Shown: one piece after another, positions 6,993-61,299 of the stretch | Layout of the letters: each line of letters starts with the position of its first letter | Position numbering within the stretch: the first letter of the stretch is position 1 | Source of the DNA: Methylovirgula sp. 4M-Z18 | Lineage (GTDB): Bacteria > Pseudomonadota > Alphaproteobacteria > Rhizobiales > Beijerinckiaceae | Length of the DNA stretch: 64,000 nucleotides | Assembly (NCBI RefSeq): GCF_037890675.1 | Contig: NZ_CP149574.1 | Location: forward strand, 4,006,874-4,070,873 | Direction: 5' to 3' | Position numbers and translations under genes: made by a program | The notes under the pieces: model-generated | What the model saw: the letters and a program-made list of their open reading frames with translations, nothing else | The model's database searches: none | What the model was told of the DNA's origin: nothing

Positions 6993-7091
6993 TAAACTCG
7001 GTGGATACGCGAGCTGTGGAGCGTGACAGATGCTCGTGCGGCAATCGGCGGGCATTCGCGTGCCTGGGGCTATATTGGAGTGGCGGAAAAA

Positions 7092-7328
7092 TGGCGGACC
7101 AAGAGGGATTCGAACTCAGCGGTTGCGTGAGCCCAAATATCGTGCTCGCCTTCGCCGAGGAGGCCGACCAGCTAAGCAGCAGAATCGTTGGGCAATGAGC
7201 CCACAGGCGTAGCCGGTGCAAGAATGCAAAACCCGGCTGATTTTCGGCGGAGTTTTGGTCAGATCGCGATGCTGAGCGACATACGTTGGAAGTGGTTGCG
7301 GGGCAGGATTTCAGCTTAACTTGCGACG
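7092..7328. repeat. Dispersed repeat, copy 1, beginning with a tRNA-Ser 3' end
   Basis: About 237 bases that align, with divergence, to 29763-30000 in the same orientation. The left end is the complement of a tRNA-Ser 3' terminus (reverse strand reads GAGTTCGAATCCCTC...CCGCCA, positions 7092-7117). The right part contains GGTTGCGGGGCAGGATTT, which matches the 3' end of tRNA-fMet. Neither piece has a cloverleaf, so these are fragments. Such pieces often mark former integration sites. Confidence 0.6.
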
Positions 7329-23267: not shown

Positions 23268-23320
23268 GAGCTTTCACGTAGCTCAGGTCGGGATACGGCT
23301 CGCAGCTGTACGGTACGCGT

Positions 23321-23480
23321 TCAGGTGCGTGGAATGGGGATCATGATGCGCTCGGGTTTCGGCCCTTCGGCCGCCAAGCTGGCGAAGATGCGATCAAACA
23401 CGCCAAGCCGGCGCCGGCGGATAAAGCGGTTGTAGAGCATTTTGTGCGGCCAGCGCCCTTGGGCGCATCCTTACGCCGCA
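23321..23480 (-). pseudogene. IS5-family transposase orfA fragment
   Basis: On the minus strand the fragment reads NGLRRKDAPKG, then after a frameshift WPHKMLYNRFIRRRRLGVFD and RIFASLAAEGPKPERIMI, ending at a stop. This is the N-terminal region of IS5-type transposases (normally ...APKGYGPHKTLYNRF...). The rest of the element is missing. It adjoins the left IS1380 fragment. Confidence 0.75.
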
Positions 23481-23499
23481 GACCATTGCAGATCACCTA

Positions 23500-23990
23500 G
23501 CCCGGATTATGCATGGCAGCTTGGCGGATGTAGCCTAAGAGGCTGATTTTGCGTAGCATCTGGTTGTCGAAGCTGATTCACGCGATTTCTGCCGAGCCAC
23601 CCCCCGCCATGAACGATCCTATGCTGCCGCTACCCGGTCTGTCATCCGTTTCGCGCAAATCCGTTGTGGCTAAATTCGATGGCGGCTCGTTGTCGTCGGA
23701 CGGCGGCATCCTGGTGCTGCGAAAGCTGGAGCAACGGCTGTGTGTCGCCGATCGTTTGGCCGCCTGCATCGACGACCCGCGCGCTCCCGACCAGATCACG
23801 CACTCTCTTTCCGACATCATTCGCTTTCGCCTGTTGATGATCGCGGCCGGCTATGAAGACGGCATCGACGCCAATCGCCTACGCGCCGATCCCGCCTTCA
23901 AAATGGCGCATGACCTTGCCCCCGTCCGACCGCGAGCTGTGTTCGCAATCGACGATCTCGCGGCTGGAAAACCTGCCCGGCGCAAAAAAT
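23500..23990 (+). mobile_element. IS1380-family element fragment, left copy
   Basis: The fragment holds the left part of an IS1380-type element, including about 100 bases before the transposase gene. It is nearly identical over about 210 bases to 29252-29470, in the same orientation. Together they bracket the exosortase cassette. The right portion of the element is missing in both copies. Confidence 0.7.
23609..23990 (+). pseudogene. IS1380-family transposase, truncated and frameshifted
   Basis: The frame starts MNDPMLPLPGLSS and contains VVAKFDGGSLSSDGGILVLR, typical of the IS1380 N-terminus. It continues to GYEDGIDANRLRADPAFKMA. A one-base shift near 23920 moves the continuation (PSDRELCSQSTISRLENLPGA) to another frame, and homology ends near 23988. 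The full transposase is about 450 residues, so more than two thirds is lost. Confidence 0.8.
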
Positions 23991-24237
23991 CCTGAGCCTG
24001 GCGCTGACGCACATCCCGCGGCTCGTCACTTGACCCACGGCGCGGCGCGCCCCGTCTTCAACCCTATCCCGTCAACCTCAAGCCTCGACCCTCGCACCTC
24101 CGTCCCGTCACAGGAGAGGATGGGCCGCGTCAACACGTCCGCGTCCCGGTCGACAATTGCAAAACGCCCCGCAAAACCGCTATCGCCACGCATAATGGCG
24201 GCTAGCAGAGTCAAACAATTGCGGGTGATTTGCCATG

Positions 24238-24262
24238 GGGTCAACATTTGGTGCAATTTCAC
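24238..24262. repeat. 25-bp sequence repeated inverted at 59722-59746
   Basis: Positions 24238-24262 are the exact reverse complement of 59722-59746. Here the sequence sits between the left IS1380 fragment and the TPR gene; the other copy lies just outside the IS630 element. It may be the end of an unidentified transposable element. Confidence 0.55.
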
Positions 24263-24266
24263 GCAT

Positions 24267-26486
24267 TCACCAATGTGTCTCGACTTGTTCTGCTTGGGTC
24301 GTAAGTTCGTCAAGGAGTTGGAGTGCTTTTTCCCTGTCAGGAAACTCTTGATTCGACTCTTTAGCGCGCTGCAAGACGGTGATCGCGGCGCTTATCTGTT
24401 GTGTACTATAAAGCGCGGTTGCTAGATGAAATTGTATCTCGGGCCTATCCGGCAATTTGTGTGCGCTCTGTTCTAACAGAGACAAACCTCTATAATAATA
24501 TGCTCTCTTAATATAGATCCAACCCAAGGTGTCGCAGATATAAGGGTCGTTCGGCATCATCTTCCAGGCTTTCTCGGCAAGATGAGCAGCCTTCGCAAGG
24601 TCTGGAATCTTTTCGGTATAGATACTTGCCAAGTTGTTAAGTGCCGCGGCCGAGTCGGGCTCAACCGTCAGAAGCTGTTCATAGGTACTCCGCGCCGCCT
24701 CGAAGTCCTTCAGATCGGTCTGAATCATCGCGATCTGGAGAAGCACAGCAGGCGACTTATTCCTGTTGGCAAATGAAGTCAGCTGCTCCAACGCCTCTTG
24801 CAATCTGTGCGTGGCAACGTAAGCGGCTCCAAGTAGGAGATAAGCCGGCTCGAAGTTGGCATCCAGCTCGATGGCCTTTATCGAGGCTGCTTCCGCTGCG
24901 TCGTAATCCTCCCGAGCGAGATCGATCTCAGCTTTGAGACACCACAGGCTTGGGACAGTCGGAGATTTGGCGAGTTGCTCCTCTACGCGGCTCGCGGCAG
25001 CCTCCCTATGGTTTTCTGCGATATCCATCTTCACGATCTGGGAAAGAGCAGGGAGATAGCCCGGTGCGATTCGCAAAGCTTCTTCGAAAGCTGATCGGGC
25101 ATCTGCCGGTCGATTTTGGCGGGCAAGATACATACCGATGAGCAACGCCGGTTGCGGATCTTTAGGGAACAAGTCCGACATCCGGCGATAAGTCGCCAAC
25201 GCTTCCCCGCTGTTGTGCTGTATCAAATAGGCGTCGGCCAAAATGAGATGCGGACCAATACGCGGCGGTTCCCGTTTAATTAACTCTGTAAGCGAGGCTA
25301 TCGCTGTAGCCGCGTCTCCCTTTATTAACTTTAATTCATCGCGCAGAACGACCGCGTCCTCAAAATCTGGGTCCAGCGCAACGGCTCGATCAAGGCTATC
25401 TATAGCCTGATCAACATTTCGGATGGATAGTTGCTTCAGCGCGATCTGGTAATGCAGATCCGGAACACGGTCGTACATCGATCGAAGCCGCGCGAACTCT
25501 TGAAGGGACTCAAGGGGTAATTTCAAGTTTGCCTTGGCGACTAGTGCGGCATAATTGGTGGGCTCCTCCGCGAGGATTGTGTCCGCGATCTTTACACAAT
25601 CCTGAACCCGTCCTTCTCTACAGGCCAGGTTCATTAAGTCGACCCAGGCTGGGAGGAAATCCGGCGCCTTTTGGGTTATCTCCTTCAACAAGAGGTCAGC
25701 TGTTTCGCGCTCTCCATTTGCACGCTTGAAGTCTGCATACCCTATTCGCCAGTTAGATCGCAGTCGCGCATGTTGCGTGGCCATCGCCAAAAAGTGGTCT
25801 GCTCTTTTTGCGTCGTTGCGCATCCAGTACAGGTGCCCCAACGCAAATTGCGCAGGAGCGAAACTCGGGTCCAGTTGTAAGGCTTGTATCAAATCGGCTT
25901 CTGCGCCCGCGGTATCAAGCTGCCGCAAGTCCAGTGTTCCGAGCGCGACTTCATAAACAGCCCGATCGCCAACTTGTTGGCGAAGGGCCTCGATCCGCTG
26001 ACGGGCGTCTTGAATATCCTGCGTTGAGCGGGCTGCATCGGTCAGCAGCAAAACTGCTTCCTCGTTCACGGGATCTCTTGTCAATACCGAATTTGCGGCC
26101 CTTTTAGCCTTTTGCTTCACACCCACCGCTAAATAAACTGCGCCAAGCTTCAGCTTCACTGTATCATTTTCTGGTTCGAGCGCCGCTGCTTGCTGTAGAT
26201 ATTCGTATGATTTGGAAAGCCTGCCTTGATCGAAATAAATAACGCCTAGCTCTCGCGCTGCCACGGCGTCACCAGGAAACAGTCGAAGTACTTTAAGATA
26301 TTCTCGCTCGGCATTTTTAAAATCTTCCGATGCGAGATATTGTGTCGCACGCCTCATATAGAGCTCTTTGTCGGCATCCTTCGAGGTGAGATGATCGCTA
26401 AGTGTCACGAACAGCAATGTGATGAACAGGAGAGCCGATGACAAAAGTAGAATGGTGACGCAAAATTTGTACCGATGGGCCGCCAT
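24267..26486 (-). CDS. TPR-repeat protein of an exosortase system (PrsT-like)
   Basis: A 739-residue protein with one N-terminal membrane segment (FCVTILLLSSALLFITLLFV) followed by about 18 tetratricopeptide-like helix pairs across the remaining length (for example AREYLKVLRLFPGDAVAARELG and LAEKAWKMMPNDPYICDTLGWIY). The frame extends to a TTG at 26516, but ATG at 26486 has GAGG four bases upstream. The architecture resembles PrsT, the large TPR protein accompanying PEP-CTERM/exosortase loci. It is the last gene of the minus-strand cassette behind the ice-binding-like gene. A role as periplasmic or membrane scaffold in export or polysaccharide assembly is inferred. Base composition is AT-richer than in flanking operons. 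Confidence 0.8.
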   Translation of the reverse strand: MAAHRYKFCVTILLLSSALLFITLLFVTLSDHLTSKDADKELYMRRATQYLASEDFKNAEREYLKVLRLFPGDAVAARELGVIYFDQGRLSKSYEYLQQAAALEPENDTVKLKLGAVYLAVGVKQKAKRAANSVLTRDPVNEEAVLLLTDAARSTQDIQDARQRIEALRQQVGDRAVYEVALGTLDLRQLDTAGAEADLIQALQLDPSFAPAQFALGHLYWMRNDAKRADHFLAMATQHARLRSNWRIGYADFKRANGERETADLLLKEITQKAPDFLPAWVDLMNLACREGRVQDCVKIADTILAEEPTNYAALVAKANLKLPLESLQEFARLRSMYDRVPDLHYQIALKQLSIRNVDQAIDSLDRAVALDPDFEDAVVLRDELKLIKGDAATAIASLTELIKREPPRIGPHLILADAYLIQHNSGEALATYRRMSDLFPKDPQPALLIGMYLARQNRPADARSAFEEALRIAPGYLPALSQIVKMDIAENHREAAASRVEEQLAKSPTVPSLWCLKAEIDLAREDYDAAEAASIKAIELDANFEPAYLLLGAAYVATHRLQEALEQLTSFANRNKSPAVLLQIAMIQTDLKDFEAARSTYEQLLTVEPDSAAALNNLASIYTEKIPDLAKAAHLAEKAWKMMPNDPYICDTLGWIYIKRAYYYRGLSLLEQSAHKLPDRPEIQFHLATALYSTQQISAAITVLQRAKESNQEFPDREKALQLLDELTTQAEQVETHW

Positions 26487-26630
26487 TTTCCTCAAGATCC
26501 TGATTTGGTACCGCAATCTACTTGGCTTGATTTTTCGCAGTCAATTTTAGCCATTGGTGCGGGCGCGCAGGGAAATGGGCCGCGGCTGGCAAACTTTGTC
26601 CGTCTATCTCTCTTCACACCAGGCTTAACT

Positions 26631-27557
26631 TTAAATCCGTCTAACTCCTGTTCGACGCAGCCATAGAGCCAGGAGGAGACCCCCTAGTATGAGGAAAGAT
26701 GGAATGCTCGCTCCTATTAAAGGTGCGGGCGCGCCATTGACGCCGCTCACGTTCGCCCCGGACGCTATGTTGATATTGCCGCCGCTAATTATCGAGCCGG
26801 CAAATGACCCGGGGGAAAGCTGGACATTCTCGTTGGGCGCAAGGATAGTCCCTGCCAAAACTGATTCATTGAGCAGACCGCCGCTGGCTTGAACATTGTT
26901 TCCAGTAACATTGAAGACGACATCATTCGCTGTGAGACCGCCAGCTAATACGATGTCGGCCGAGTTAAGTGCCATGCCGCCGGAGTCGTTCAAAATAAAT
27001 TCAGTACCAGCTGAGCCGCTTAGCGTGAGAACCGCTCCGTTCCCCAAGGTGATGCTGCTGAGATTAATGACGTTCAGGCCTCCAGGATTGCCAGCAGTAA
27101 TTGTCGTCGTGTTTGTGATCTGGCTCCCGGAGACGGTCTGGGTCGGTGTCAGAGCTGAAAACGCGCTTGACGCCTTGGCAGCAGAACTGGCGGCTGAAGA
27201 GAGGAGCGCGCCTTGATCAGTAAGAACGCCGCCGATGGGCAAAGCGCCACCGCTGAAGTTCGCGGTCTGCGAACCACCCAAGTAGAGGCTGCCAATTAAA
27301 GGAACGCCGGAATCACTGAAATTCCCTGAACTGGTCCCAAGGACTCCTACATTTCCCAAGATCGATCCTGGAGGAGCAGGGCCGGATATACTGACGTTGC
27401 CGTTGCTGTTGATATCGAGGACCGCGAAATTCCCGGCCGCACCAAGTTCGGTACTAATAAAATCCGCAGACGCGGAACGCATTGGAGCCACGATGAACAG
27501 CGCCGTCGCGGCAACTGCGCCGACAAATCGGCTGGTTGCAAGAGATTTTAAAGCCAT
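26631..27557 (-). CDS. DUF3494 ice-binding-like surface protein with C-terminal sorting tail
   Basis: A 308-residue exported protein. The signal peptide ends near SASA-D (about residue 31). The central 210 residues are rich in Gly, Ser, Asn and hydrophobic repeats (GAAGNFAVLDINSNGNVSIS, FILNDSGGMALNSADIVLAG, TGNNVQASGGLLNESVLAGT), the pattern of the DUF3494 beta-helix fold found in ice-binding proteins and adhesins. The C-terminus is a tripartite tail: APAPLIGASIPS, a hydrophobic helix, then RRTGVRR, as expected for an exosortase substrate. ATG at 27557 has AGAGG five bases upstream; an ATG at 27572 is possible. Probable role is a surface adhesin or matrix protein; ice binding itself is not implied. 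Confidence 0.82.
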   Translation of the reverse strand: MALKSLATSRFVGAVAATALFIVAPMRSASADFISTELGAAGNFAVLDINSNGNVSISGPAPPGSILGNVGVLGTSSGNFSDSGVPLIGSLYLGGSQTANFSGGALPIGGVLTDQGALLSSAASSAAKASSAFSALTPTQTVSGSQITNTTTITAGNPGGLNVINLSSITLGNGAVLTLSGSAGTEFILNDSGGMALNSADIVLAGGLTANDVVFNVTGNNVQASGGLLNESVLAGTILAPNENVQLSPGSFAGSIISGGNINIASGANVSGVNGAPAPLIGASIPSFLILGGLLLALWLRRTGVRRI

Positions 27558-27642
27558 GACAGCCTCTTTCATTAGAAAGCCATCCGGTTATTCGGACTTT
27601 CCGAAAAATCCGCAAATTAAATTACACATTTAAAGGACCTCG

Positions 27643-27673
27643 AATTAAATAAAATGTCAAGTTATCTTTTGAC
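27643..27673 (-). promoter_or_regulatory. Duplicated promoter element upstream of the ice-binding-like gene
   Basis: A 31-bp sequence identical to 29201-29231, located about 85 bases upstream of the gene. On the minus strand it contains TTGACA as a good -35 box with AT-rich sequence at -10 distance. An inverted repeat, GTCAA-N8-TTGAC, overlaps that -35 box and could be an operator. Confidence 0.6.
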
Positions 27674-27708
27674 GCTACGGACGCCTTTCGGTTCAAGGGC
27701 CGTGACTG

Positions 27709-28215
27709 TCAGCTCGAAACGGCAGGAAGATAGTCGCGATCCCAGACGAGGCGCCAATCCACGGCGTCAACGGCCTCGCAGCCAATCGGGGCGTCGATGC
27801 GCAGGAGGTGCCATCCAGGCGTGTATCGACTAAGGCCTAAGAGAGCAAGCGCTGCCTGGCTCGTCCGTTTCAGATAGACTCCTATTCGATCTCGTTTTTT
27901 CCAGGTGCTGTCTAGGTAGACGTAGCGGATCGAATAGTTACCCCGCGCAACTCCAATCAAGGGCTCGTCCTCGAAGGTCAAGAAGAGAACGGTAACGTAC
28001 ACTGGCCCGGGGCATCCTGGGGCATCGAACGTCAGCTGCCCCTGCGTACTTGCCGTGGCGGGCTCTTGAAAGGCCAAGCCACCTGCCTCTCCCACGCGGA
28101 TAATCGCCGGCACCATATTCTCGCTTGCTGGGAATATTTCGCTGGGACGAGAATTAACGAGTAGCGTAGCTATTAGAAGGGTCCCAAAAACCGCATGGTG
28201 CATACGCACTTTCAT
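27709..28215 (-). CDS. Small exported protein associated with the exosortase
   Basis: A 168-residue protein whose ATG overlaps the exosortase stop in an ATGA arrangement. An N-terminal hydrophobic segment (AVFGTLLIATLLVNSRP) suggests membrane anchoring or secretion. The remaining 130 residues are predicted soluble, with beta-rich stretches (QGQLTFDAPGCPGPVYVTVL) and a conserved-looking end (GWHLLRIDAPIGCEAVDAVDW). I do not recognise a named domain. Position and size resemble the EpsI-like or accessory proteins often encoded with exosortases. Its exact job is unknown. Confidence 0.7.
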   Translation of the reverse strand: MKVRMHHAVFGTLLIATLLVNSRPSEIFPASENMVPAIIRVGEAGGLAFQEPATASTQGQLTFDAPGCPGPVYVTVLFLTFEDEPLIGVARGNYSIRYVYLDSTWKKRDRIGVYLKRTSQAALALLGLSRYTPGWHLLRIDAPIGCEAVDAVDWRLVWDRDYLPAVSS

Positions 28216-29084
28216 GGCTCCAGATCCCGCTGCCCAACCAGCCAAGCGCTAAGAACCAGAACAATCGCGCCGGTTCCCGTTTCGAACACCTGCGCACCGA
28301 CTCCGTCGTGCCAGAAGTGAAAGGAACCTCTATTTGATGCCATCAGATATAGCCTGGCCCAATTCAACAAAATAAGAGCGCCCGCAATAATCGCTCCTTT
28401 GATCGCATCCCCGCGCTGCCAAGCAGGGTGTGTGAATCTGGTAAACGCTATCCAACAAAGCAAAGCCAGAGATAAATTGTGGAACGAAGAGCAACCACTA
28501 TATATGATGATTCCATCGCCATCGGCATTGGTGATGACGTTGTCATTCCAGGTTATATCAGATCGGCCAACCGCGAGTAGGGTTCCTATTACTGCTGCTT
28601 CAGCATTGAGTAATAAGGGCGCTAGGAGGTTAAATAAGACATGTCCCCAAAAAGCCTGTACGGATAGAGCCCCCAGCACCACACCGGCGCCACGAATGTA
28701 ACGATCTCCTGAGGCGAAAACCCACATATAGACGGCAAGACCGGAGCTTGCGAGCCAGATCATTCTATTAGTCGGCAAAAAAAGTACCGCGCAGAACAAT
28801 ATGGAAGCTACAAAATCTCGTACATTTGCTTGCCCGTTTCGATCGGCTCTGATGAGCAACCGGAAAACTCCAACCCATGCTAGGTACTGAAAGAAACTGG
28901 CAGATGCGACGTTGAAAAATCTATCTGAGAACGCTTCAACTCGTGGATCAATCAGCAGATGCAACACAAAATTCGAAAAGATGATCGAGCTAGTCCATAA
29001 GAAAATAGTAGATCTGGGCGTCGCCCAGATTTGTGTTTTGTCAAACGACACCGAGGTCGGTACGAGAATTTTCTCAAAAAACAT
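28212..29084 (-). CDS. Exosortase/archaeosortase family membrane protease-transpeptidase
   Basis: A 290-residue polytopic membrane protein with about eight helices. The three expected active-site regions appear in order: the cysteine in GIIIYSGCSSFHNL (about residue 187), the arginine in LNWARLYLMA (about 245) and the histidine in FHFWHDGVGA (about 260). Exosortases cut C-terminal sorting tails and join the protein to a cell-surface acceptor. The substrate is probably the DUF3494 protein at 26631-27557. The sequence is divergent from classical EpsH (no AC-SG motif), so I do not assign a subtype. It is the first gene of the cassette and has its own copy of the repeated promoter upstream. Confidence 0.82.
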   Translation of the reverse strand: MFFEKILVPTSVSFDKTQIWATPRSTIFLWTSSIIFSNFVLHLLIDPRVEAFSDRFFNVASASFFQYLAWVGVFRLLIRADRNGQANVRDFVASILFCAVLFLPTNRMIWLASSGLAVYMWVFASGDRYIRGAGVVLGALSVQAFWGHVLFNLLAPLLLNAEAAVIGTLLAVGRSDITWNDNVITNADGDGIIIYSGCSSFHNLSLALLCWIAFTRFTHPAWQRGDAIKGAIIAGALILLNWARLYLMASNRGSFHFWHDGVGAQVFETGTGAIVLVLSAWLVGQRDLEP

Positions 29085-29200
29085 AGATAGTCTCTGATCA
29101 CGAAAAAAAGCTCCCCGCGCCCAGAGAGACGGTTAGCACCGGGGCGCGATGCGTCCGAAAAACCTGCAAATTAAATTAACGATTTAAAATTAAAACCTCC

Positions 29201-29231
29201 AATTAAATAAAATGTCAAGTTATCTTTTGAC
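29201..29231 (-). promoter_or_regulatory. Duplicated promoter element upstream of the exosortase gene
   Basis: The second exact copy of the 31-bp element, about 117 bases upstream of the exosortase start. It again gives TTGACA on the minus strand followed by an AT-rich -10 region. A neighbouring GCAAATTAAATTA block is also shared with the copy near 27612, so the duplicated region spans about 75 bases with divergence. Confidence 0.6.
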
Positions 29232-29251
29232 ACGATGTCGATAGTGAATTA

Positions 29252-29470
29252 ACCTGAATTATGCATGGCGGATGTAGCCTAAGAGGCTGATTTTGCGTAG
29301 CATCTGTTTGTCGAAGCCGATTCACGCGATTTCTGCCGAGCCACGCCCGCCATGAACGATCCTATGCTGCCGCTACCCGGTCCGTCATCCGTTTCGGGCA
29401 AATCCGTTGTGGCTTAATTCGATGGCGGCTCGCTGTCGTCGGACGGCGGCATCCTGGTGCTGCGAGAGGT
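29252..29470 (+). mobile_element. IS1380-family element fragment, right copy
   Basis: Nearly identical to 23500-23730. The transposase frame begins at 29352 (MNDPMLPLPGPSS) but has a TAA where the left copy has a lysine codon (VVA-stop-FDGG), and homology ends near 29467. It is therefore a dead fragment, in direct orientation relative to the left copy. About 5.5 kb of exosortase cassette lies between the two. Confidence 0.75.
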
Positions 29471-29762
29471 GGTGCCCCTCCCGAAGCGCATCATATCATC
29501 TCTTTCCCTTACCGCGAATTGCGACCCAAAGACCGGCCGCGCTCAAGCGACGGCCGGGCTGATCAGGCCGGGGCGAGAGAGCCGGACGCCTCATTTTTGA
29601 TTGCGTTGATTCAGATTGCGTTTGCAGAGAAGCGACTGAGCAAATAGCCGTGTGCATTCAATTCCGTTCGCTCACAACCGCAAATCTGACCTAGGTAGCA
29701 GCGCAGATGAGACCAGGTCGCTTCTTAATATTACATATATCTCAATTAGATAAGTGAAAATC

Positions 29763-30000
29763 TGGCGGAGAGGGAGGGATTCGAACTCCGTGCTAGGAGG
29801 ACGTAAATGTCCTGTTCGTAATGAGCGCGACAGCCGACCGACCAGCGACGCAATGGTTGGACCGTGACCCACAAGCATGGCGGGCGCAAGCGTGCAAAAC
29901 CCCGCCGGTTTCTGCGACGGGATTCTGATCAGATTGGGATGGCGAGCGATTTATGTTTGAGGTGGTTGCGGGGGCAGGATTTGCTCTCAACTTGCGACGT
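29763..30000. repeat. Dispersed repeat, copy 2, beginning with a tRNA-Ser 3' end
   Basis: The direct, diverged counterpart of 7092-7328. Positions 29763-29789 are the complement of a tRNA-Ser 3' end (T arm and acceptor strand ending CCGCCA). Near 29971 the piece GGTTGCGGGGGCAGGATTT matches the tRNA-fMet 3' end. No complete tRNA fold is present. The stretch 29471-29762 before it and 30001-30129 after it show no gene. Confidence 0.6.
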
Positions 30001-30129: not shown

Positions 30130-30870
30130 TTAAGGCGGACACGACTTTAGGGCGCGGGCGCCGCTTGGAGATGCGATAGACGGCTGCCGGCGGGATGTTG
30201 AGGATCGAACCGCCAACCTTGTTGGCTTTCCTTCCAGCTTACGGCCTTTATCCTGATAGTTCCAACCTGGTATGGTGATCTGGCCGAAAACGACGCCGTC
30301 GTGGTTGACGAGGTCCTCAGGGGTCGATGGCCGTCCCTTGCGGGCAAGATACTTTGGGCTGGCGCAGGTTACGAAGCCGAAATCGCAGATCTTGACCGCG
30401 TAAAGTGAACTGTCGGCAAGCTCGCCCAACCGGACCCCAACGTCGACGTGCTCGTCGACGAGGTTGACGAGGCGATCGAGGGAGAGGACGTTCAGCGTGA
30501 TCTCGGGATATTCGCAGAGGAAGTCGTAAGCAAGCCGCAGCACATAGTGCTGGCCGAACACCATCGGCATGGTTATCGTCAATACGCCTCTCGGGGTTTG
30601 ATATTCGCCCGAAGCCCGAAGCTCGGCGTCCTCGATTTGCGCGACGATCTGACGGGCCGCATCGACATAGTCGCGGCCCGCATCGGTGAGCTGGATGTTT
30701 CGGCTGGTCCGAACGAGAAGGCGAGTACCAAGATGGCGCTCGAGTTCCGCGACTTTCCGGCTCACGCTCGGCAGCGGCGCGTTCAGTTTGCGACTTCCTG
30801 CCGACAAGCTGCCGGCGTCGACGACTGCCAGCAAAACCCGTATTGCATCGAAACGGTCCATGAGACCCAT
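30130..30870 (-). CDS. LysR-family transcriptional regulator, C-terminally truncated
   Basis: A 246-residue regulator. The N-terminal helix-turn-helix (FDAIRVLLAVVDAGSLSAGSRKL, VSRKVAELERHLGTRLLVRT) and most of the periplasmic-binding-like effector domain are normal up to about residue 210. After WNYQDKGRKLEGKPTRLAV the product ends in a low-complexity Ser/Arg tail unrelated to the family, about 50 residues short of normal. The break coincides with repeat-type sequence. It may still bind DNA but probably lacks a complete dimer or effector domain. The start is ATG at 30870 or 30861. Confidence 0.7.
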   Translation of the reverse strand: MGLMDRFDAIRVLLAVVDAGSLSAGSRKLNAPLPSVSRKVAELERHLGTRLLVRTSRNIQLTDAGRDYVDAARQIVAQIEDAELRASGEYQTPRGVLTITMPMVFGQHYVLRLAYDFLCEYPEITLNVLSLDRLVNLVDEHVDVGVRLGELADSSLYAVKICDFGFVTCASPKYLARKGRPSTPEDLVNHDGVVFGQITIPGWNYQDKGRKLEGKPTRLAVRSSTSRRQPSIASPSGARALKSCPP

Positions 30871-31192
30871 CCTCCTTGCGCCGGCGGTCGTGACTCTGCT
30901 CACCGGCACCGATCGAATTGCACGCGTTGGCAACAGTCCCGCCAGGCGCCAGTACAATCTCAGCCTCACGCTGTTTCGCGATGATTTTTTCTAACTTGTG
31001 TTTCCTCGCGACCGCAGTCCTTCTTTTTGGCTCACACTAAAATAGTCGACGGACCACTCAGAAGAGCAGATCATTCTATTGCAGCGCCAGCACATGACGG
31101 AACTCAATTGAAGGATTTCTTACAAGCCGTCGCCAGCATGTCCTCCAACTTCATGTCGGACGAGTCCGTCTGAAGATGGACAAAGCAACAAT

Positions 31193-43315: not shown

Positions 43316-43479
43316 CCGACGTTCTCTTCCATTTGACGGAACGTCCTACTCCAGCGACTCATTTTTGTCGATCATATACAATGGAAACCCACAGAAACTC
43401 CAATTCATGCCCTCTTGATCCCGGCTCGGTTGGCGACGCCCGGAGTCCAAAATGCGGTAGCCGGGGATCGCCTCGGAAC

Positions 43480-43730
43480 CGGCGCTTCAGCGCGATCGCA
43501 TTACCCCGGGGACCGAGCTCGATCATTTTCGTCCATCCCGCCGCGCAGGAGCACATCATGAACGGCGACGGCGAACTCGAATAGTTGCCAAGATGGAACC
43601 CCGCAAACCATGCAATGCTGAAGTCGCGCTCCTCGGCCGTTTGAACCATCTTTCTCATATTGCACATGATACCACGCGCGCCATGCGGATGATCGCGAAC
43701 TGTCATGAGTCTGAATAGGCCAAGCAGCGT
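43480..43730 (-). pseudogene. Luciferase-like monooxygenase, N-terminal relic
   Basis: About 80 codons match the beginning of the intact monooxygenase at 50084: LLGLFRLMTVRDHPHGARGIM compares with QLGLFNLMTLRDHPDGAQGVM, and NYSSSPSPFMMCSCAAGWTK with NYSSSPSPLMMCSYAAGWTK. The start codon has become ACG (43728-43730) although a TTAGGAG ribosome site remains. Homology ends after ELGPRG near 43480. It lies directly behind an intact flavin reductase gene, so the pair is a decayed duplicate of 49532-51175. Confidence 0.8.
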
Positions 43731-43787
43731 ATCGTTCTCCTAAATCGAATTGAAATCAGGCATTCGGATGCCTTGTGTTTTGTTCGT

Positions 43788-44291
43788 TCATGCGGCGCTC
43801 TGAAAGGCAAGCGGCGCGCCGACGGCATAAGCGCCATCCTGGTAGATCAGCGGTGCAACTTGGGAGGCAAAGCGCGACGCGATCACGCGACCAACGATGA
43901 TGTCGTGGGTCGAATAGCAGTAGGCGTGATCGACTTCGCAAAAGAGATTTGCTTGTGCATCCGAGAGATACGGCATCCCATTCCGCAAGGCCCAATTGCC
44001 AACGAGAAACCGCTCCTCTGCCGGTACGCCTCCACTAAAGCGCTTGGAGATATCGACCTGAGAAGCCTGCAGCAAGTTGATGCAATAGCGCCTCTCCTTG
44101 CGCAGAGGATCGCTGATCGATGCTTTTTGATTGATACAGGCCAGAATGGAGAGCGGAGAGAAGCACAACGACGTCACTGACGTCACAGTTATCCCGTACC
44201 GCACGCCTTCGTTTTGGCAGGAAATCACGCAAACCGTTGCCGCGAGACGCCGCATGGATTGACGGAAATCTTCTTGGTTTTGATCAAGCAT
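43788..44291 (-). CDS. Flavin reductase domain protein (paralogue 1)
   Basis: A 167-residue FMN-binding split-barrel protein that would supply reduced flavin to a monooxygenase. Segments such as MRRLAATVCVISC, RYGITVTSVTSLCFSPLSIL and RYCINLLQASQ are typical of the flavin reductase-like family. It is roughly two-thirds identical to the protein at 49532-50041 by eye. Its partner monooxygenase downstream is broken, so it may be redundant or serve the other copy. A perfect 19-bp palindrome lies 28 bases before its start. Confidence 0.88.
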   Translation of the reverse strand: MLDQNQEDFRQSMRRLAATVCVISCQNEGVRYGITVTSVTSLCFSPLSILACINQKASISDPLRKERRYCINLLQASQVDISKRFSGGVPAEERFLVGNWALRNGMPYLSDAQANLFCEVDHAYCYSTHDIIVGRVIASRFASQVAPLIYQDGAYAVGAPLAFQSAA

Positions 44292-49531: not shown

Positions 49532-50041
49532 ATGCTCTCGCAGGATCTGAGAACCGAGCATTTCCGACAGTCCATGCGGCGCGTGGCCTCGACGGTCTGC
49601 GTGATCTCGTGCAAGCACGATGGGCGCCGCTACGGCATCACCGTCACGACGGTAACTCCGCTCAGTTTCGCCCCGATTGCGATCCTCGCCTGCGTTAATC
49701 GCAATTCGTCGATCAGCGTGCCGCTCAAGGAAGAGGGGCGCTACTGCATCAACGTGCTTCGCGCCTCGCAGTCCGACATATCCAACTCATTCAGCGGCGG
49801 GCGACCAGCCGAGAGACGTTTCGACATTGGCGAGTGGAACGAAAAGGAGGGCGTCCCCTACCTGCCGAGCGCACAGGCGAACCTGTTCTGCGAGATGGAT
49901 CAGGCAATCTCGTACGCCACCCACGACATAATTATCGGACGGGTGGCGGGAGTGGCATTCGCCTCCGATGTCGACCCGTTGATCTACCAGAACGGCGCCT
50001 ATGCGCTGACTTCGCCCATGGTCCTCCAGAAGGCTGGATAG
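49532..50041 (+). CDS. Flavin reductase domain protein (paralogue 2)
   Basis: A 169-residue reductase of two-component flavin monooxygenases. Recognisable stretches are MRRVASTVCVISC, RYGITVTTVTPLSFAPIAIL, RYCINVLRASQSDISNSFSGG and THDIIIGRVAG. It is the first gene of a plus-strand operon running to about 59514 and is followed after 42 bases by the monooxygenase. It is the intact counterpart of 43788-44291, with different codon choice (higher GC here). Confidence 0.9.
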   Translation: MLSQDLRTEHFRQSMRRVASTVCVISCKHDGRRYGITVTTVTPLSFAPIAILACVNRNSSISVPLKEEGRYCINVLRASQSDISNSFSGGRPAERRFDIGEWNEKEGVPYLPSAQANLFCEMDQAISYATHDIIIGRVAGVAFASDVDPLIYQNGAYALTSPMVLQKAG

Positions 50042-50083
50042 GACTGATTGCCAACGTCGATGACGGATCTTAGGAGCAAATGA

Positions 50084-51175
50084 ATGCAGCTTGGTCTTTT
50101 TAACCTGATGACGCTACGCGATCATCCCGACGGCGCCCAGGGCGTGATGCGCGACACCCGCAAGATGGTGGAGACCGCCGAGGAACTCGGCTTCGACATT
50201 GCGTGGTTCGCCGAGCACCATTTCGCCAACTATTCGAGCTCGCCGTCGCCGCTGATGATGTGTTCCTACGCGGCCGGCTGGACCAAGCGGATAAAGCTTG
50301 GCCCGGGGGTGATCGTGCTGCCGCTGTACAACCCGCTCCGTGTCGCCCAGGAGATCGCTGTCGCCGACACGCAAACCGAGGGCCGCTTAGTCATCGGTAT
50401 GGGTACGGGCTATCAGCGCTACGAGTTTGATCGCTATAATGTCGTTCTGGACGATCGGGTCGACGTTTTCCTTGAATATTGGGACGTTATCGAAAGGGCG
50501 CTCGTCGATGGCGAGGTCGAATACAAGGGAAAACACGTCTCCCTTCCCATAACCAAGTTCGCGATCAGCACGCAGCAGAAGCCTCTTCCGCCAATCTTTG
50601 TCACCTCCTCTCATCCCAAACTCCTCGAGCGGTTCAAGAAGTGGAAGGCGGTCCCGTTCCTTGCGGCCAGCACGCTCGGGTCGCCCGTGCTCTACAAGAT
50701 GGTCGACGGGCTCAACGACGCCTGGAGGAGCATCGGCGAGCAGCCTGCGGCCAAGCCCTTGGCGATCATGCAGTACCTCGCCATAACCGACAATCGCAGC
50801 GAGGCCATGGCCGTTGCGGAGCGTGCCCGATATGTAGGGCGCATGGCGCATTATTTGCGCCAGGCCTCACCGCCGCTGGACGACAACAGCTACATCAGCA
50901 ACCAGGCGTTTGAGGGCGAGTACACGCTCGACCAGTATGCAAACAACATGGTGGTGGGCGATCCGCACACCGTTGCCGAGAAGATGGTCGCGGACATCAA
51001 GCGTCTCAATCCTAGCAACTACACCTGCAACTTCTCCTTCGGCTGCATGCCGATCGAGTTGGCGCATCGCTCGATCGTTCGGTTCAAGAACGAAGTCGTG
51101 CCGCTCATCGAGAAGGAAGTGGGACCTATCGAAGCTATCGGCGTGACACCCGAGCTGGCGAGAAAGGCGAGTTGA
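50084..51175 (+). CDS. Luciferase-like (LLM class) flavin-dependent monooxygenase
   Basis: A 363-residue TIM-barrel monooxygenase that would use FMNH2 from the reductase encoded upstream. Typical stretches are AEELGFDIAWFAEHHF (about residue 36), LGPGVIVLPLYNPLRVAQEIAVAD, and GRLVIGMGTGYQRYEFDRY. It lies among transporter, RidA and lactonase genes, which points to oxidation of an imported amine, lactam or sugar derivative. It does not resemble the alkanesulfonate enzyme SsuD closely. The N-terminal part has a decayed copy at 43480-43730. Confidence 0.88.
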   Translation: MQLGLFNLMTLRDHPDGAQGVMRDTRKMVETAEELGFDIAWFAEHHFANYSSSPSPLMMCSYAAGWTKRIKLGPGVIVLPLYNPLRVAQEIAVADTQTEGRLVIGMGTGYQRYEFDRYNVVLDDRVDVFLEYWDVIERALVDGEVEYKGKHVSLPITKFAISTQQKPLPPIFVTSSHPKLLERFKKWKAVPFLAASTLGSPVLYKMVDGLNDAWRSIGEQPAAKPLAIMQYLAITDNRSEAMAVAERARYVGRMAHYLRQASPPLDDNSYISNQAFEGEYTLDQYANNMVVGDPHTVAEKMVADIKRLNPSNYTCNFSFGCMPIELAHRSIVRFKNEVVPLIEKEVGPIEAIGVTPELARKAS

Positions 51176-51234
51176 GCGGCTTTGAAAAATGCCCAACCAA
51201 TAACGTGGTCCGCAACATTAAAATGGGGAAGGAT

Positions 51235-52059
51235 ATGAGAACAATGATGAAGACTCTGCTGGCAGCAGCGGTTGCCACATTGGCACTCGCTGGTCAGGCG
51301 CATGCCGACTCCGCGCTCGACACGATTGTCAAGAATAAGCAGCTGCGCTGCGGCATCATGCTGGACGCGCCGCCCGCCGGATTTCGCGACCAGAACAACC
51401 AACCCGACGGCTATGATGTCACCTACTGCAAGGACATGGCGAAAGCGCTCGGCGCCGAGCCGGTGATCATCGAGACGCCATCGCCGGATCGCATCCCGGC
51501 CTTGGTTTCGAACCGAATCGATGTGCTGATCTCCTCCACTACGCCGACCCCGGCGCGCGCGCTGACGGTGGCCTTCACACAGCCCTACACCAACAACATC
51601 ATGATGGTGGTGACGCGCAAGGACACCGGGATCAACCAGTATTCCGATTTGAAGTCCAAGAAGCTCGGCGGCGTCATAGGCGCCACGCCCGAGCAGCTTT
51701 TCAAGCAGGAGCTCGCCAAGGGCTGGCAAAGTTCCGGGGCGACCTACACCGGTTATGCGAGTGATGCAGAATCCTACCTTGCGCTGCAGCAAGGCAAGAT
51801 AGATGCGATCCTGATCGCCGCTGGCGTTTTCCACGCGCTTTCGCAAAGCGGTCAGTTTCCCGAATTCGTAGCGGAGGGAGCGGCGCCGTTGGCCGATTTC
51901 GGTTCAATCGCGGTTCGCCGCGACGACGAGCAATTCCTCAATTGGGCGCGGCTGTTCATCTTCCAGCAGGAGGTAAGCGGGCGCCGTGCCGAAGTCTACA
52001 AGAAGTATTATGGCGACGGTCCGTTGCCGCCGCTGACAGCCGACGGCATCAACTTCTAA
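51235..52059 (+). CDS. Polar amino acid ABC transporter substrate-binding protein (tandem copy 1)
   Basis: A 274-residue periplasmic family 3 binding protein. The signal peptide ends at QAHA-D near residue 24. Family stretches are LRCGIMLDAPPAGFRDQ, GYDVTYCKDMAKALGAEPV and RIPALVSNRIDVLISSTTPT. ATG at 51235 has GGGGAAGG upstream; an earlier in-frame start at 51172 is less likely. It is about 90% identical to the next gene and probably binds the same or a closely related ligand. Confidence 0.9.
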   Translation: MRTMMKTLLAAAVATLALAGQAHADSALDTIVKNKQLRCGIMLDAPPAGFRDQNNQPDGYDVTYCKDMAKALGAEPVIIETPSPDRIPALVSNRIDVLISSTTPTPARALTVAFTQPYTNNIMMVVTRKDTGINQYSDLKSKKLGGVIGATPEQLFKQELAKGWQSSGATYTGYASDAESYLALQQGKIDAILIAAGVFHALSQSGQFPEFVAEGAAPLADFGSIAVRRDDEQFLNWARLFIFQQEVSGRRAEVYKKYYGDGPLPPLTADGINF

Positions 52060-52152: not shown

Positions 52153-52977
52153 ATGAAAGCGATTGTAAAGGCTCTGCTGGCGACAGCGGTCGCCTCCTTG
52201 GTGTTCGCAGCTCAGGCGCATGCCGAGTCTGCCCTCGACACGATCGTCAAGAACAAGAAGCTGCGCTGCGGCATCATGCTGGATAGCCCGCCTGCCGGAT
52301 TTCGCGATCAGAACAATCAGCCCGACGGCTATGACGTCGCCGTTTGCAAGGACATGGCGAAGGCGCTCGGGGCCGAGCCGGTGATCATCGAGACGCCATC
52401 GCCGGATCGCATCCCCGCCTTGGTTTCGAACCGCATCGACGTGCTGATCGCATCCACCACACCGACCCCGGCGCGGGCGTTGACGGTCGCCTTCACCCAG
52501 CCCTATACCAACAACATCATGACCGTGGTGACGCGCAAGGACACCGGGATCACCCAGTATTCCGATCTGAAGTCTAAGAAACTCGGCGGTGTCGTGGGCA
52601 CCACACCCGAGCAGCTCTTCAAGGAGGAACTCGCCAAGGGCTGGCAAAGTTCCGGGGCGACCTACACCGGTTATGCTAGCGATGCAGAATCCTACCTCGC
52701 TCTACAGCAAGGTAAGATAGATGCCATCTTGATCGACGCAGGTGTCTTCCACGCGCTTTCGCAAAGCGGTCAGTTCCCGGAATTCGTCAAGGCGGGGGCC
52801 GCACCTCTGGCCGATTTCGGCTCGATCGCGGTTCACCGCGACGATCAGCAATTCCTCAACTGGGCGCGGCTGTTCGTATTCCAGCAGGAGGTAAGCGGGC
52901 GCCGGGCCGAAATCTACAGCAGGTATTACGGCGATGGCCCGTTGCCGCCGCTGACGGCCGACGGCATTAACTTCTAA
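52153..52977 (+). CDS. Polar amino acid ABC transporter substrate-binding protein (tandem copy 2)
   Basis: A 274-residue protein that closely repeats the preceding one (GIMLDSPPAGFRDQ, CKDMAKALGAEPV, PLPPLTADGINF end). The duplicated unit includes about 70 bases of leader before each gene (TTGAGCGGC... / CTGAGCGGC...). Differences cluster in the signal peptide and a few surface positions, for example TYCKD to AVCKD and IAAGV to IDAGV. It is followed by a hairpin and the two permease genes. Confidence 0.9.
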   Translation: MKAIVKALLATAVASLVFAAQAHAESALDTIVKNKKLRCGIMLDSPPAGFRDQNNQPDGYDVAVCKDMAKALGAEPVIIETPSPDRIPALVSNRIDVLIASTTPTPARALTVAFTQPYTNNIMTVVTRKDTGITQYSDLKSKKLGGVVGTTPEQLFKEELAKGWQSSGATYTGYASDAESYLALQQGKIDAILIDAGVFHALSQSGQFPEFVKAGAAPLADFGSIAVHRDDQQFLNWARLFVFQQEVSGRRAEIYSRYYGDGPLPPLTADGINF

Positions 52978-61110: not shown

Positions 61111-61162
61111 GGTTGCGCGGGCAGGATTTGAACCTGCGGCCTTCAGGTTATGAGCCTGATGT
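61111..61162 (-). pseudogene. tRNA-fMet 3' fragment (anticodon arm, T arm, acceptor strand)
   Basis: On the minus strand the fragment contains TCAGGCTCATAACCTGA (anticodon stem-loop with CAT) and GCAGGTTCAAATCCTGC (T arm), and ends in CAACCA. This is the 3' 50 bases of an initiator tRNA. The D arm is missing, replaced by unrelated sequence, so it should not be functional. It may be the trace of an element integrated at the tRNA gene. Confidence 0.75.
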
Positions 61163-61299
61163 CCAGTTCTCATTTTTATCCCGCGCGGTGCGCCACTTCG
61201 GTTCCCATCTGCGAACGTTTGGACCGTTTCCGTCATCTGAACATTTGGCACAATGGCGGCGAGATCTAGCGGAATGCCGGCGTCATTTCGGGGTTGAAG

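Follow-up and report, generated by a model that had tools for sequence, protein, structure and literature searches.

The 64,000-nucleotide window analysed here, from the alphaproteobacterium Methylovirgula sp. 4M-Z18 (contig NZ_CP149574.1), contains a compact cassette of four minus-strand genes (24267-29084) flanked on both sides by 5' fragments of the insertion sequence (IS) element IS1380. We think it likely that this cassette is a horizontally acquired exosortase system, probably with one enzyme and one cargo, that belongs to an unnamed family and in which enzyme and cargo are co-regulated by twin promoters. The chances appear about even for a broader view, in which this unnamed exosortase family is widespread in Rhizobiales and allies and has its own sorting tail, PGPxAGxGLP. 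The window would then hold a mobile, stand-alone version of the system with one enzyme, one cargo and twin promoters, free of exopolysaccharide (EPS) genes.

The cassette is composed of genes for an exosortase-like membrane protein of 290 residues (28212-29084), a small partner protein (27709-28245), a choice-of-anchor A surface protein of 313 residues that we propose as the cargo (26631-27572) and a tetratricopeptide repeat (TPR) protein of 749 residues (24267-26516). An earlier note, made from the letters of the window, had described four such minus-strand genes between two directly oriented, nearly identical IS1380 5' fragments; all four open reading frames (ORFs) were found, and the fragments are indeed direct repeats. 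The same note had called the genes an exosortase module. This call holds through the relatives of the enzyme and not through a match of the enzyme itself to any curated model. It rests on the relatives because the window enzyme fails these models.

Relatives of the enzyme were found in 10 of 385 genomes of the class by sequence search. A profile search found the enzyme in 13 class genomes; this count includes the Methylovirgula genome itself and two weak matches. Two Rhizobium plasmids and 18 named genome loci carry further relatives; these 18 loci were found by the enzyme alone, with a profile from a four-sequence alignment. Hosts include Nitrobacter, Bradyrhizobium, Mesorhizobium, Microvirga, Devosia and Methylobacterium, besides the Rhizobium plasmids. 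Identity between the window enzyme and its relatives is about 20-32%, and none exceeds 32%. The generic exosortase/archaeosortase signature TIGR04178 is matched by 19 of 24 relatives at E<0.01, a few of them over the 23-bit cut-off, whereas the window protein does not match it. PF09721 is matched by two of the 24 and by nothing in a search of the whole Methylovirgula genome. None of the named subfamilies XrtW, XrtX, CrtC, ArtE and ArtD was approached, and a PDB sequence search with the enzyme gave no relative. A quick tree gave good support to the core family (21 rows). Search of the literature retrieved no description of the family. These relatives form an exosortase family of Rhizobiales and allies that has no name in current databases.

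Cys198, Asn241, Arg244 and His259 of the window enzyme are invariant in the alignment of 24 sequences. Cys, Arg and His, the proposed active-site residues, occur in that order. The AlphaFold2 model is a multi-helix bundle of reasonable confidence (predicted local distance difference test score, pLDDT, 79; predicted template modelling score, pTM, 0.77) with long helices throughout. As judged from this model, the protein appears to have the approximately eight membrane helices of the superfamily. Together with the matches of its relatives, these data support the view that the window enzyme is an exosortase-type protein and a divergent member of the unnamed family.

In most relatives, a partner gene of about 165 codons lies directly downstream of that of the enzyme. 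Its product has an N-terminal helix and two invariant cysteines. The window partner, with one N-terminal membrane helix and the two cysteines, fits the profile of the relatives' partners (E 3.9e-5). It has no NCBIfam or Pfam match, EpsI (TIGR02914) included, and the partners of 20 relatives likewise gave no convincing match in Pfam and none to EpsI. Its start is likely the ATG at 28215 rather than the called start at 28245, which gives an ATGA overlap with the stop codon of the exosortase gene.

The proposed cargo had been described as a DUF3494 surface protein. This identity was ruled out, as no Pfam family matched at E<=1, and the protein instead belongs to the choice-of-anchor A family (TIGR04215, 37.3 bits over a 29-bit cut-off). 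The family is named for its varied C-terminal anchors. Here, the protein has a signal peptide and a C-terminal tail, GAPAPLIGASIPSFLILGGLLLALWLRRTGVRRI, that is absent from NCBIfam 20 models and was not matched by TIGR02595. The tail reads GAPAPLIGASIP..., or more fully GAPAPLIGASIPSFLILGGLLLALWLRRTG. The proposed sorting signal (motif, membrane helix and basic end) is encoded by 26631-26735 on the minus strand. A search of plasmids with the cargo protein gave no match.

The tail is best defined in the relatives. Near the enzyme, many of them have a small secreted protein that ends in GAPGPxAGAGLP, followed by a membrane helix and a basic RRRR end. A tail model built from the window and three class loci only was tested on the 18 loci. 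In this leave-out setting, 14 of the 18 carry a tail protein near the enzyme, and none occurs elsewhere among 2108 ORFs (E 0.01). These proteins lie at most 700 bp from the called enzyme ORF or overlap it, and in most cases stand directly upstream. Reversed and shuffled controls gave no matches. Genome-wide, the tail was found at E<=1e-5 in five of six genomes that hold the enzyme and in none of 40 that do not (Fisher 4e-6), counting only genomes that gave the model no seed. Enzyme-holding genomes have 1 to 7 tail proteins each, and many of these are encoded at a distance from the enzyme; they have a signal peptide, and their bodies are glycine-rich or diverse. In genomes such as that of Microvirga puerhi (G452), up to seven small, glycine-rich secreted proteins with a PGPxAGAGLP tail are scattered over the genome (L076-L104). 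No NCBIfam model over its cut-off covers the relatives' tails, except for a borderline LPXTG-anchor match of one protein.

In the Methylovirgula genome, the cargo is the only match of the tail model, which contains its own row. With that row left out, the window tail still ranks at the top of 1247 window ORFs. The evidence that a cargo with a motif-helix-basic tail accompanies the enzyme is strong for the relatives and moderate for the window. The predicted pairing of enzyme and cargo in the window is likely, on the basis of how the genes are arranged, the three parts of the tail, the lack of any other candidate and the shared promoter.

The two genes are preceded by related promoter regions. 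A 79-nt block is common to the sequences upstream of the enzyme gene (29154-29231, minus strand) and of the cargo gene (27600-27673, minus strand), with an alignment score of 97, whereas shuffles reached at most 36. The enzyme-side block contains TGTCAAAAGATAACTTGACA, a perfect palindrome overlapping TTGACA, from which the copy at the cargo gene differs by one change. The exact string TGTCAA-N8-TTGACA occurs once in the genome, and the full palindrome is confined to these two sites within 1.34 Mb, even when four mismatches are allowed. An apparent third copy, with a window-segment score of 72, was taken as self-overlap of the query with segment 29085-29120, in which 36 bases match and each counts 2 points. 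In the relatives, the cargo gene often stands directly in front of the enzyme gene, and both are likely on one transcript. We infer that in the window co-expression may have been reached via a duplicated promoter instead of a shared transcript. Regulation by sigma-54, as with PrsR, was rejected: no GG-N10-GC precedes the cargo gene, and the single such string is found before the exosortase gene. Between the promoter block and the start codon of that gene, a terminator-like hairpin with a T-run (29111-29128, minus strand) could perhaps be an attenuator; the signal is weak, with eight such sites against 5.4 expected.

The AT-richness noted earlier for the cassette was confirmed, and its foreign origin is supported. 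Its GC content is 52.2%, against 57.5 and 58.5% in the 10-kb flanks and 61.2 +/- 2.0% for the chromosome (114 sampled chromosome windows). This corresponds to a z of -4.6, and no sampled window is as low. In codon usage, each of the four genes ranks at the bottom 1-3 when set against 199 reference genes. The flanks are themselves mildly AT-rich: over about 7-64 kb of the window, GC lies above that of the cassette and below that of the chromosome as a whole. Because this low GC begins at about 7 kb and continues up to the right end, the cassette appears as the most extreme portion of an accessory region that is larger than itself. A search of 35 other genera of the family Beijerinckiaceae gave no homolog of the enzyme. 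Foreign composition and this absence together support acquisition from outside by horizontal transfer. The gene to the left of the cassette is sporadic, found in four of 40 relatives at 28-38% identity, so that no reference empty site can be defined.

The left IS1380 fragment (23493-23985, plus strand) contains the 5' end and the N-terminal part of the transposase gene. The right one (29255-29475, plus strand) has the same orientation and an in-frame stop. The two are 94-95% identical over 213 nt (23519-23732 versus 29263-29475). Region 23493-23982 is 72% identical to full-length IS1380 elements on rhizobial plasmids, and the left fragment matches 85 of 419 positions of NF033539. The full-length plasmid relatives show that both pieces are left ends, truncated. 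A genome search for the element returned only these two copies, neither of them intact. By eye, the left piece seems to be inserted in a reverse-strand remnant of an IS5-type transposase gene (23320-23490).

Beyond the right IS1380 piece, at a distance of about 290 nt, an exact 3' end of tRNA-Ser(CGA) stands without the rest of the gene (29763-29785, minus strand), possibly an integration scar. Its intact parent is 788 kb away (G000:C1:4825172), so that the scar was rejected as the border of a tRNA island of the simple kind. Another tRNA-like 3' end, TTCGAATCCCTCTTGGTCCGCCA, is located at 7087-7117 on the minus strand, where GC falls from about 65% to 55%; no intact parent was found in the genome parts read. 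These scars suggest past integrase-type insertions in the region.

As the earlier note had remarked, no EPS cluster is visible nearby. One query set, the EPS proteins of Rhizobium sp. WL3 at E<=1e-10, matched nothing but a weak gmd/fcl pair at 3.66 Mb in the surrounding 1.34 Mb. Unlike the window cassette, the loci of the Rhizobium relatives lie inside EPS clusters. Several relatives (e.g. L012, L018 and L020) adjoin polysaccharide or sugar-transfer genes, as judged from annotation or by eye. Since no EPS cluster was found within 1.34 Mb, the acceptor of the cargo may not be a polysaccharide made nearby.

The TPR protein had been described as PrsT-like. It does resemble PrsT (265.1 bits with TIGR02917), but the score stays below the 312.2-bit cut-off for PrsT. 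No lipobox was seen in the protein.

The cassette shares several features with the PEP-CTERM/EpsH system (XrtA; Haft et al. 2006, PMC1569441): a multi-helix membrane enzyme with invariant residues that fit a transpeptidase, a cargo with a signal peptide and a C-terminal tail made of motif, helix and basic end, a PrsT-like TPR protein, and a small gene directly downstream of that of the enzyme. It differs in that the tail motif is PGPxAGxGLP (relatives) or PAPLIGASIP (window) and not PEP, the partner is not EpsI, there is no shared sigma-54 site, and the window copy is outside an EPS cluster. No PrsK/PrsR two-component system was seen in the window, and no genome-wide search for one was made. 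Archaeosortase ArtA has the same proposed cysteine chemistry, in which a cut near the C-terminus gives a thioester and the cargo is transferred to an acceptor (PMC7157517). In contrast, ArtA is archaeal, recognises a cargo signal of its own and uses a lipid as the acceptor.

We propose the following mechanism. The N-terminal signal peptide would direct export of the cargo, and the C-terminal tail, with the PxP motif, membrane helix and basic end, would retain it in the inner membrane. The exosortase would then cut at the motif via Cys198, with Arg244 and His259, as proposed for ArtA (PMC7157517) and EpsH (PMC1569441). The cargo would be passed to an acceptor and may end on the outer surface. 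The two-cysteine partner, presumably co-translated with the enzyme, may assist it in the periplasm, and the TPR protein probably aids hand-over or assembly at the outer surface. Enzyme and cargo would be switched on together by the duplicate promoters with the same operator. Gene order, homology through the family, the link of tail and enzyme in the relatives, promoter duplication and foreign composition are directly supported.

Several results weigh against this assignment. The window enzyme has no meaningful match to the Pfam and NCBIfam exosortase models (TIGR04178, TIGR02602 and PF09721), and Foldseek searches of the PDB with the models of the enzyme and the partner returned nothing at E<=0.001. 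In the tree, the enzyme does not group within the supported core clade but shares a long branch with the enzyme of locus L014, a join that may be artefactual. When its own row is removed from the model, the window tail reaches only 12.4 bits (E 0.06), and at least 6 of 5000 reshuffles of it outscore the real tail. The tail was not found with the deep-branch members of the family in six genomes (G154, G165, G185, G254, G268 and G334). Conversely, one genome that is negative with the enzyme profile (G382) has two neighbouring genes for proteins with a similar tail, GAPAPVAGGGLA... (E 1.2e-4; L049 and L056, at G382:C56:8882 and 10361), which may belong to another exosortase. Finally, the TPR gene was found in none of the other enzyme loci.

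Some of these data would fit a decaying remnant, in which the enzyme looks intact but the genes have lost expression or function within a degrading accessory region. The truncated IS1380 pieces, the shortened LysR-family gene that is the right neighbour (129 of 209 positions), the tRNA 3' scars and the long branch of the enzyme all point that way. Four full-length ORFs, the retained catalytic residues and the conservation of promoter block and palindrome between two genes speak against it, and we regard decay as unlikely. Another view, that the cassette is a piece of an ordinary PEP-CTERM/XrtA system, with a divergent EpsH, PrsT and PEP-CTERM protein cut off from their EPS locus, appears very improbable to us. 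It would account for the PrsT resemblance (265 bits), the common three-part plan of the tail and the position of the Rhizobium relatives in EPS clusters. It is at odds with the lack of PF09721, TIGR02602 and EpsI matches, with a tail without PEP, with the absence of a conserved sigma-54 site and with nearest relatives that form a separate unnamed family with a different tail.

A further proposal concerns the way the genes travelled and is compatible with a sorting function. Two directly oriented IS1380 5' ends that bracket AT-rich genes evoke a composite transposon that moved the four genes as a unit. Such an element would be bounded by two IS copies that retain their outer ends, and a target duplication would be expected. 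Here, only 5' fragments are present: both copies lack their 3' ends, the outer right end is absent, the genome has no intact copy, and no target duplication can be read. Moreover, the milder low GC extends over about 57 kb. We regard transposition as a composite element as unlikely. Horizontal acquisition of an exosortase system with a single cargo remains our preferred reading.

Many exosortase systems have dozens of cargo proteins and lie within large polysaccharide loci. To our knowledge, what exosortases attach their cargo to is still unknown. With four genes and one cargo, such a unit would allow mass spectrometry to test where the enzyme cuts and what the acceptor is. If the proposal is true, the cassette would be an exosortase system of minimal size, and the question of the acceptor could be approached with its four genes. 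In addition, the tail would give a clue to what becomes of many small secreted proteins that lack annotation in Bradyrhizobium, Microvirga, Mesorhizobium and Nitrobacter; several of these bacteria live with plants.

Elsewhere in the window, the LysR-family gene (30130-30969, minus strand), whose substrate domain covers 129 of 209 positions, is probably truncated. A degenerate tRNA is possibly located at 61113-61185 on the minus strand (Rfam tRNA, 33.3 bits; uncalled by ARAGORN). Genes for a flavin reductase and a luciferase-like monooxygenase occur twice (43359-44291 and 49532-51175), and the left luciferase-like gene is cut to 115 codons, which marks a decayed duplicate. Genes for two ABC-type substrate-binding proteins that appear similar by eye form a tandem pair (51172-52059 and 52153-52977).

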